From the NCBI RefSeq assembly GCF_024380015.1, contig NZ_CP101508.1:62001-126000 (forward strand): a DNA stretch of 64,000 bases, written 5' to 3'. A program made the position numbers and the translations under genes. Positions 34,834 through 36,542 of the stretch are shown piece after piece. The number at the start of each line of letters is the position of its first letter. Position 1 is the first letter of the stretch. Source of the DNA: Photobacterium atrarenae (GTDB lineage: Bacteria > Pseudomonadota > Gammaproteobacteria > Enterobacterales > Vibrionaceae). Under the pieces are notes generated by a model. It worked only from the letters and a program-made list of their open reading frames with translations, did not search any database and was not told where the DNA came from.

Positions 34834-35694
34834 ATGGCACAAGAAATGACTTCATTGGCGTTAGTTTCCTCAGACAGCCTGGACAGTTACGTTCAGAGTG
34901 TCAACAGCTACCCGATGCTGTCGGCGGAGCAGGAGCGTGAGCTGGCTGAGCGTCTGCATTATGATGGCGATATCGATGCGGCCAAGTCCCTGGTCATGTC
35001 CCACTTGCGCTTCGTAGTGCATGTCGCGCGCGGTTATTCCGGTTATGGCCTGCCGATGGCAGATCTGGTTCAGGAAGGCAACATCGGCCTGATGAAGGCG
35101 GTGAAGCGTTTCAATCCGGAAGTCGGTGTGCGCCTGGTGTCGTTTGCGGTCCACTGGATCAAGGCTGAAATTCACGAGTACGTGCTGCGCAACTGGCGGA
35201 TCGTCAAAGTCGCGACCACCAAAGCCCAGCGCAAATTATTTTTCAATCTGCGCAAGGCGAAAAAGCGCCTGGGCTGGTTCAATAACGACGAAGTCAACAT
35301 GGTTGCCGAGCAGCTCGGGGTCGATGCCAGCGAAGTCCGTGAGATGGAATCCCGTCTGGCGGCCCAGGATCCGACTTTTGAGAGCCCGGTCGATGATGAT
35401 GATCGCGACAGCGGCTTCAGCGCCCCGGTCTATTTCCTGGAAGATAAATCGTCCGACGTGGCCCTGAGTTATGAAGAGAATAACTGGGAGAGCCATGCCA
35501 CCAACCGGTTGTCGCAGGCGCTGGCCTGTCTTGATGAGCGGAGTCAGCACATTGTCCGCTCGCGCTGGCTGGATGAGCAGAAGACCACCTTGCAGGAGCT
35601 GGCAGAGCATTATGGCGTTTCTGCAGAAAGGATCCGTCAGCTTGAGAAAAATGCGATGAAAAAGCTCAAAGAAGCGGTGGGTGACAGCCTCTGA
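34834..35694 (+). CDS. rpoH: Heat-shock sigma factor RpoH (sigma 32)
   Basis: 286 residues. Region 2 ([40 protein letters not shown]), the RpoH box [17 protein letters not shown] and region 4 ([20 protein letters not shown]) are all present. Sigma 32 directs transcription of chaperone and protease genes; its synthesis in E. coli is controlled by an RNA thermosensor at the start of the coding region. ATG 34834 is preceded by GAGG. Position after ftsYEX is conserved. A strong terminator follows. Confidence 0.97.
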
Positions 35695-35731: not shown

Positions 35732-35755
35732 AACCGGCCTAACGCCGGTTTTTTT
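35732..35755 (+). terminator. Intrinsic terminator of rpoH
   Basis: AACCGGC (35732-35738) pairs with GCCGGTT (35744-35750) and runs into seven T. It lies 38 bases after the stop. Confidence 0.92.
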
Positions 35756-35815
35756 GTGCCTGATTTCTGGGAACTAGTTCACGTTTTGGGGTTGAAACAG
35801 AGCTGTATACCAATC

Positions 35816-36150
35816 TTATCCACAGATTATGATCGGATCCGATCTACATATAGTGGATCCTTTTGGAAAAAAACACATTATCAACGCTATTCACAGACTT
35901 TTCCACAGCTGGTGATTGTTTGTCCGCTCTGCCCGCTACCGTGGTGTGAGCCATCGGCAGAGCCCTTGCCCTGTCTGTAATATCGTGTATGGGTTGTAGC
36001 TGCTGAAACCCCTACATTCTGTGCGAGGTTGTGAGTAACTTTGTGGGGTACAATAGGCACCAGCGCAGATACCCCGTGATCGCTGCGGCCGGGATCCCAA
36101 AACGGAGGATCATCACAGTTTCACGGCCGGCGCGGATCCTCGGGTGGATC
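35816..36150. other. Cluster of DnaA-box-like sequences and GATC sites between rpoH and glpE
   Basis: A perfect DnaA box TTATCCACA lies at 35816-35824. One-mismatch boxes stand at 35887-35895 (CTATTCACA), 35899-35907 (TTTTCCACA) and, reversed, at 36030-36038 (TGTGAGTAA). GATC occurs at 35831, 35836, 35841, 35856, 36078, 36093, 36108, 36135 and 36147, with a tenth at 36210 inside glpE; about one would be expected by chance in this length. The density resembles oriC or SeqA/DnaA-regulated loci, but no origin gene (mnmG, mioC, dnaA, rctB, parAB) is beside it. A candidate -10 TACAAT (36049-36054) for glpE lies within it. Confidence 0.6.
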
Positions 36151-36198
36151 GGCAATCCCATAACCCCAATGCTGGCGGCGCCAGCAGCAAGTAAGTGA
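36076..36198 (+). other. Possible 40-codon leader frame upstream of glpE
   Basis: A GTG at 36076 opens a frame to TGA 36196-36198 that ends eight bases before the glpE ATG (VIAAAGIPKRRIITVSRPAR at its start). Five of the GATC sites fall in this frame with ATC as an isoleucine codon. There is no convincing ribosome site, and the opposite strand is also open, so coding is doubtful. The hairpin GCTGGC/GCCAGC (36171-36185) lies at its end. Confidence 0.2.
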
Positions 36199-36206
36199 GG
36201 CAATCA

Positions 36207-36542
36207 ATGGATCAGTTCGAGCATATTTCGGTAGAGCAGGCATTTGAACTGCTGCAGCAACCGGATGCCGGGGCCGTACTGGCCGATATCCGGGATCCGC
36301 AGTCGTTTGGCCTGTCACATCCGCAGGCGGCGTTTCACCTGACCAACGACACTATGGTGACGTTTATGGAGCAGGTGGATTTCGAGCAGCCGGTGATCGT
36401 GATGTGTTATCACGGGATCAGCAGCCAGGGCGCGGCCCAGTATTTGATCAACCAGGGCTATGAGACGGTTTACAGCCTGGATGGCGGGTTTGAAGCCTGG
36501 CGCCGGCAGGCGTATCCTTGTCACCAGCAGGTATCATCCTAA
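36207..36542 (+). CDS. glpE: Thiosulfate sulfurtransferase GlpE
   Basis: 111 residues, a single rhodanese domain. The active-site loop reads [11 protein letters not shown] with the catalytic Cys 67, as in GlpE (Cys 65 in E. coli), and the tail has [14 protein letters not shown]. It transfers sulfane sulfur from thiosulfate to cyanide or thioredoxin in the cytoplasm. GTGAGG six bases upstream supports ATG 36207. glpG follows 11 bases later, preserving the E. coli glpEG pair. Confidence 0.95.

Follow-up and report, generated by a model that had tools for sequence, protein, structure and literature searches.

A conserved non-coding DnaA-box element between rpoH and glpE in Vibrionaceae: a candidate DnaA control site on chromosome 1

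Two chromosomes are the rule in Vibrionaceae. The control of DnaA on chromosome 1 is, in our reading of the relevant parts of a review, known largely by analogy with E. coli (PMC6090056), and the same source mentions DARS-like sequences at the same location in V. cholerae. In E. coli, datA lies between glyVXY and queG; it is non-coding, contains several DnaA boxes and has no gene product. The DARS sites are compact three-box clusters in gaps between genes. Their boxes I and II are opposed, with starts given as 14 bp apart for both E. coli sites (PMC8682772), and the starts of boxes II and III are separated by 12 bp. The crtS site, for which a sequence pattern has been published (PMC5854411), is a non-coding site on chromosome 1 that is conserved in Vibrionaceae. 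DnaA boxes with dense GATC sites are found at oriC and at the dnaA promoter, and DnaA boxes together with NrdR boxes are found in the regulatory region of nrdA; the E. coli class Ia reductase genes are described as being regulated by both DnaA and NrdR (PMC4009431).

The stretch of DNA analysed here (the window) comprises 64,000 nucleotides of Photobacterium atrarenae, C1:62001-126000 of a 5.4-Mb genome in three contigs, and C1 starts with dnaA. Among named organisms, the nearest relatives of its GlpG belong to Photobacterium. An initial annotation had noted DnaA boxes and GATC sites between rpoH and glpE and had offered datA-like, DARS-like and crtS roles for them. About 100 bp of this gap, referred to below as the core, contain a distal DnaA box and a tandem triad of boxes. 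Does the core represent one of the known sites?

Known control sites in the same genome

The crtS proposal failed: the published pattern CAGnATATGTAACTnATGCTTTCGG, searched with up to three mismatches, matches the genome once, at C1:2656523 and with 0 mismatches, so that crtS differs from the core in both sequence and place. Candidates for DARS1 and DARS2 lie where they do in E. coli, as opposed pairs of the DARS1 kind about 530 bp upstream of uvrB and of the DARS2 kind in the rppH-mutH gap. The 12-bp spacing of DARS boxes II and III recurs in triad boxes 2 and 3 of the core, whereas the opposed arrangement of DARS boxes I and II differs from the triad, in which all boxes lie on the + strand. 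Over the whole genome, DARS-like opposed pairs with up to three mismatches occur at 30 places, compared with 7 for a control pattern. Pairs with one mismatch are present on chromosome 2 of this genome (G000) at C2:49569-49591, C2:965973-965995 and C2:1421331-1421353, the last of them beyond a putative nrdD.

A datA-like cluster of DnaA boxes follows queG (C1:3177508) and precedes tRNA-Gly, as in E. coli. The core differs from datA in its neighbours and its sequence; the core contains two paired GATC sites and a palindrome of the NrdR type, against a single GATC in the datA gap of E. coli. Given these candidates at E. coli-type neighbours, the core is neither datA nor DARS, although it may still work in a similar manner.

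The origin itself was taken as C1:3439463-3439651, a GATC-rich stretch with two perfect DnaA boxes. The core is flanked by rpoH and glpE and not by gidA/mioC, and by eye it is unlike the oriC stretch, which argues against a copy of the origin. The dnaA promoter (C1:3456586) occupies the end of the contig, ahead of dnaA. A pair of perfect DnaA boxes at a distance of 297 bp from each other was also seen at C1:1776915-1777220 in G000, near mid-contig and possibly on the terminus side. Finally, the core differs from the nrdA regulatory region in having no adjoining reductase gene and in carrying one full NrdR box and a half-site. Because crtS, DARS, datA, oriC and the dnaA promoter are all located elsewhere, the rpoH-glpE site is an additional DnaA-box locus; any role it has may be redundant next to the datA- and DARS-like sites of this genome. 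No description of a DnaA site between rpoH and glpE was found in the open-access papers searched.

Organization and conservation of the core

The two flanking open reading frames are named from established knowledge and the initial annotation, and we take them to be rpoH (VC0150 in V. cholerae) and glpE. The gap between them is 515 bp long; its features are collected in Table 1. The probable rpoH terminator was not among the results of the automatic terminator scan, and hairpins with T runs are found at the matching place behind rpoH in relatives. In the 5' to 3' direction, the core consists of a DnaA box, a GATC site, the palindrome CTAYATNTWG, a second GATC site, a variable spacer and then, in tandem, TTATCAACG, a weak box and TTWTCCACA.

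Table 1. Features of the rpoH-glpE region (positions in the window)
Feature	Position	Strand	Remarks
rpoH (sigma-32)	34834..35694	+	ORF; upstream neighbour; anchor for locus extraction in relatives
Further box GTATCCACA	35708		missed by the initial annotation
Probable rpoH terminator	35734..35756	+	inverted repeat and T run seen in the sequence
Conserved core element	35816..35912	+	about 100 bp, non-coding; model matches and pairwise identity
Distal DnaA box, perfect TTATCCACA	35816..35824	+	motif; TTACACACA-type in many Vibrio
GATC sites (n=10)	35831, 35836, 35841, 35856, 36078, 36093, 36108, 36135, 36147, 36210
Fixed GATC site 1	35836..35839		GATC at this column in 81/84 distinct gaps
NrdR-box-like palindrome GATCTACATATAGTGG	35841..35856		core CTACATATAG at 35844-35853; missed by the initial annotation
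Fixed GATC site 2	35856..35859		20 bp from site 1; GATC in 81/84 distinct gaps
Weak second NrdR-like half-site, left half alone	35873..35888	+	overlaps triad box 1; left columns mostly fit, right do not
Triad box 1, low-affinity TTATCAACG	35878..35886	+	missed by the initial annotation; among the most conserved parts
Triad box 2, CTATTCACA	35887..35895	+	1 mismatch to TTWTNCACA
Triad box 3, TTTTCCACA	35899..35907	+	fits TTWTNCACA
Reversed box TTACTCACA	36030-36038	-	1 mismatch to TTWTNCACA, 2 to TTATCCACA
TACAAT, candidate glpE -10	36049..36054	+	outside core; not in promoter scan results
Second GATC cluster, glpE leader	36078..36150		outside core
glpE (rhodanese)	36207..36542	+	ORF, also in relatives; downstream neighbour; ATG at 36207

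All motifs of the initial annotation were recovered: the perfect DnaA box, the two near boxes on one strand with starts 12 bases apart, the reversed box, and ten GATC sites, three of them spaced by 5 bp and three by 15 bp. The tenth GATC falls within the first codons of glpE. The reversed box had been described as having one mismatch, which is correct against the looser TTWTNCACA and incorrect against TTATCCACA. The motifs had been read as one cluster of 400 bp, of which the part at about 35816-35912 is conserved throughout the family, while the GATC run at 36078-36147 lies outside the conserved part. A block AAAACGGA.GATC.TCAC in the glpE leader (36085-36120) is common to some Photobacterium gaps among those listed.

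How unusual is this density of motifs? The 515-bp gap contains six boxes with at most one mismatch to TTWTNCACA, compared with a mean of 0.84 in shuffled sequences (reached in 4 of 5000 shuffles), and its 10 GATC sites compare with a shuffle mean of 2.0 (0 of 5000); the average of a 504-kb sample of the genome, 7.0 GATC per kb, would lead one to expect 3.6. The initial annotation had suggested a comparison of density in sliding windows, and in the 504-kb sample this gave a divided answer. None of 50,193 windows of 100 bp elsewhere reaches the box score or the joint score of the core, whereas 59 equal or exceed its number of GATC sites. With windows of 400 bp (n=49,503), 276 windows reach the GATC count, 21 the joint score (the top one being oriC) and none the box score. 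The core has the highest DnaA-box score of the sample, and its joint score at 100 bp is above those of the dnaA promoter and oriC. The density of DnaA boxes at the gap is thus exceptional and that of GATC by itself is not, the genome being GATC-rich. The perfect box is not enriched genome-wide, with 29 occurrences against 30 for the reversed pattern.

The alignment across Vibrionaceae that the initial annotation had proposed as a check strongly supports its view of a locus of the DnaA-box and GATC kind. At a cut-off of E<=0.001, a model of the core (R1) matches 295 of 296 Vibrionaceae genomes, which represent 12 of 13 genera; 290 genomes have a single match and five (G280, G545, G581, G583 and G591) have two. 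The second match lies within the same gap in G280, G583 and G591 and elsewhere in G545. The sole genome with no match at this cut-off, G445 (g116, 2.6 Mb), has NrdR, which counts against the reading preferred below. A search of 394 genomes of the order, with stricter filters that are able to lose weak matches, gave 34 matches within Vibrionaceae and seven weak ones outside. The latter have no rpoH or glpE in their 6-kb loci and are read as clusters of DnaA boxes. Within the limits of the search filters, therefore, the core behaves as a Vibrionaceae trait.

For a closer comparison, gaps were taken from Photobacterium, Grimontia and Vibrio loci, giving 109 gaps, 85 of them distinct (loci L075 and L102 gave none). 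Several genomes or contigs belong to the same or near-identical species, and the counts are of sequences and not of independent events. The core of about 100 bp aligns across gaps, the distance from the distal box to the first GATC varying by about 1 bp, while most of the gap is variable. In the five 20-bp bins of the core, pairs of sequences have a mean identity of 0.55-0.84, compared with 0.31-0.45 in bins outside it. When 83 distinct sequences were aligned on triad box 3 (L010 and L085 were left out), 27 columns were invariant. Columns were counted over 84 distinct gaps; in the 85th (L010/L038), the anchor pattern finds no fitting triad box 3. These two loci, from Photobacterium pectinilyticum, keep the distal box.

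Triad box 3 fits TTWTNCACA in all 84 anchored gaps, the anchoring having used box 3 itself. Triad box 1 is identical to TTATCAACG in 76/84. The conservation of both is partly by construction, because the alignment was anchored on box 3 and on a resemblance to TTATCAACG 21 bp upstream of it. Triad box 2 has at most two mismatches in 83/84 and at most one in 29/84. For the distal box, the GATC sites and the palindrome, conservation is independent of the anchoring. A distal box with at most one mismatch to TTWTNCACA is found 82-84 bp before triad box 3 in 75/84 distinct gaps, and in 34/84 it is a perfect TTATCCACA at exactly 83 bp. The two fixed GATC columns form a pair of the type found at SeqA/Dam-controlled sites.

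The core lies 97.8 kb from dnaA and, if C1 is circular, about 115 kb from oriC (ori1). Twenty genomes were chosen for this comparison because their core is near a contig end; in the 17 whose contig starts with dnaA, 90.6-172.6 kb separate the core from this gene, with the core on one side of it in 12 chromosomes and on the other in five. This position may simply follow from that of rpoH and is weak evidence.

The NrdR-box-like palindrome and reduced genomes

Between the two fixed GATC sites lies a palindrome that resembles the binding site of NrdR, for which a consensus box acaCwAtATaTwGtg is given (PMC4009431). The motif CWANATNTWG is found in 83/84 distinct gaps and shows the pattern C.A.AT.T.G of NrdR operators: the columns are conserved as C in 83, A in 83, AT in 84, T in 83 and G in 83 of the 84, and both W columns are exclusively A or T. 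The palindrome is conserved about as strongly as the DnaA boxes, and its free columns are those that are free in the NrdR box. Scored against the full 16-bp consensus, 71 of the 85 distinct gaps have a site above the cut-off. The pattern ACTAYATNTWGTG with up to two mismatches is not enriched in the genome (488 places, compared with 1654 for the reversed pattern).

The same type of motif recurs elsewhere in this genome. It is present in the promoter of an nrdA-type gene (C1:1104049-1105578), together with a perfect DnaA box at a distance of 83 bp, and before a gene at C2:1418579 whose start sequence led us to read it as nrdD. Upstream of nrdA, both G000 and E. coli have, in our reading, one well-formed and one half-formed NrdR box. 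The core, by position, is not a ribonucleotide reductase promoter, and nearly all gaps carry a single full NrdR-type box. For E. coli NrdR, the affinity is reported to drop 530-1000-fold when one of two boxes is mutated (PMC12051234). The search for a second box at the core yielded the left half-site alone, at a pitch of 32 bp, compared with an operator spacing of 15-16 bp. Two Vibrio loci, L086 and L088, have an extra box of the NrdR type (ACACTACATATAGTGT; ACACAATATATAGGGT), which precedes the core palindrome by exactly 74 bp, and L034 has a further one at 40 bp from the palindrome. In L209 and L068 the palindrome is kept despite the loss of a flanking GATC.

What is retained when the genome shrinks? 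In G552 (1.1 Mb) and G553 (1.0 Mb), a weakened triad is kept behind rpoH, before a convergent open reading frame that points towards rpoH; in G552 its boxes are TTATCAACG, TAATCCACA and ATATCCACA. Neither glpE nor glpG was found in the rpoH loci of these genomes (2.2 and 3.0 kb), a search of the 330 bp that follow rpoH gave no CWANATNTWG, and the GATC pair is absent there. These small genomes, too, do without the GATC pair, and thus GATC is not indispensable. NrdR is intact in six of eight genomes tested, and the exceptions are again G552 and G553: one has a 33-residue NrdR remnant containing a stop and the other has no NrdR match. The simultaneous loss of palindrome and NrdR may be a single event in related, shrinking genomes.

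A candidate DnaA control site and its alternatives

The explanation that we tentatively prefer is that the core is a non-coding DnaA control site on chromosome 1, of the datA/DARS class and separate from both, which would probably be marked by methylation and possibly be gated by NrdR. The solid part of the case is that the core is conserved throughout the family, that it is distinct from the known sites and that the triad is retained where glpE does not adjoin. To judge from the motifs, DnaA very likely binds to the core. Tandem low-affinity boxes beside a strong one give rise to directional DnaA assemblies. DnaA would accordingly assemble in one direction on the tandem triad of a low-affinity, an intermediate and a strong box, and would also occupy the distal box on the same strand, 82-84 bp or about eight helical turns upstream. 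At about 115 kb from ori1, the site would be doubled soon after initiation and would then draw off or inactivate DnaA; early copying of an ori-proximal site suits one that lowers the activity of DnaA once initiation has taken place. Paired GATC sites in the hemimethylated state are bound by SeqA, and the two sites 20 bp apart could let this protein mark the fresh hemimethylated copy. NrdR with ATP and dATP might bind and kink the DNA between the boxes, opening or closing the DnaA complex according to dNTP supply. Such kinking by NrdR is reported (PMC12051234), and it could bring the distal box and the triad together or apart. Since the weak NrdR half-site overlaps triad box 1, competition between NrdR and DnaA is also predicted.

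Could the core instead control a gene? DnaA and NrdR, which jointly regulate nrdAB, might do the same at the promoter of glpE (glpEG), with GATC methylation adding cell-cycle timing. This is rather unlikely in our judgement, and we favour control of replication over control of local transcription. In support of the idea, DnaA boxes and NrdR-type boxes stand together upstream of nrdA in both E. coli and G000, and a permissive pattern finds a -10-like motif before glpE in 72 of the 85 distinct gaps. Its distance from triad box 3, however, jumps between 77 bp (31 gaps) and 147-150 bp (37 gaps), with other values in four, and the triad lies 96-351 bp from the glpE start, against a variation of about 1 bp within the core. 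In this window, promoter scanning gave one match, on the - strand and at the level of chance (1 vs 0.8 in shuffles). The triad of G552 and G553, kept without adjoining glpE or glpG and before a convergent gene, argues against a glpE promoter element. By contrast, in L206 and L209 core and glpE are present, whereas about 1.5 kb of upstream sequence yielded no rpoH. This would fit a role for glpE, and the transcriptional reading keeps weight. A promoter for an unannotated small RNA or antisense transcript is very improbable: there is a sigma-70 match of 9/12 on the - strand inside the triad, but matches of this kind are at chance level, the core fold in this window is not unusual on either strand (z -1.25 and 0.11), no Rfam match lies within the window, and the region between the rpoH terminator and the core shows no family-wide conservation, though parts are conserved within Vibrio.

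If the core does act on replication, is NrdR needed? Plain titration of DnaA with sequestration by SeqA would account for the near-invariance of the triad and the GATC pair, the palindrome then serving another dimeric protein or the layout of SeqA and DnaA. The weak binding reported for single NrdR boxes (PMC12051234) fits this simpler scheme, as does the triad outlasting the palindrome in G552 and G553. The palindrome, however, matches the boxes in conservation and the NrdR box in its free columns, it outlives the loss of GATC in L209 and L068, and L086 and L088 have a second NrdR-type box at a fixed distance; we judge a scheme without NrdR to be rather unlikely, too. Least probable of all is that the core is crtS or some other RctB site through which chromosome 2 is tied to chromosome 1. 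The restriction of the core to Vibrionaceae and its GATC sites would suit such a site, whereas crtS itself is found intact elsewhere. The RctB ChIP-seq section, which lists part of the eight chromosome 1 regions, names other chromosome 1 sites and, among those listed, no rpoH site.

Returning to the DnaA control site, its gating by NrdR is possible in view of the palindrome. In the boldest version, which we regard as rather unlikely, the dATP sensor NrdR would meet DnaA away from the reductase genes, and dNTP supply would directly tune the availability of DnaA after initiation. The core would then be a nucleotide-gated, methylation-timed counterpart of datA that is confined to Vibrionaceae with their two chromosomes.

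A further non-coding DnaA locus that is present practically throughout the family, and is partly kept in genomes of 1 Mb, would open a new approach to the timing of replication. Were NrdR to bind to it, there would be a direct link from deoxynucleotide supply to the initiator; the literature, in the parts that bear on this, describes a link through the transcription of reductase genes. The core is small, usually present in a single copy and deletable, which makes the question readily testable.
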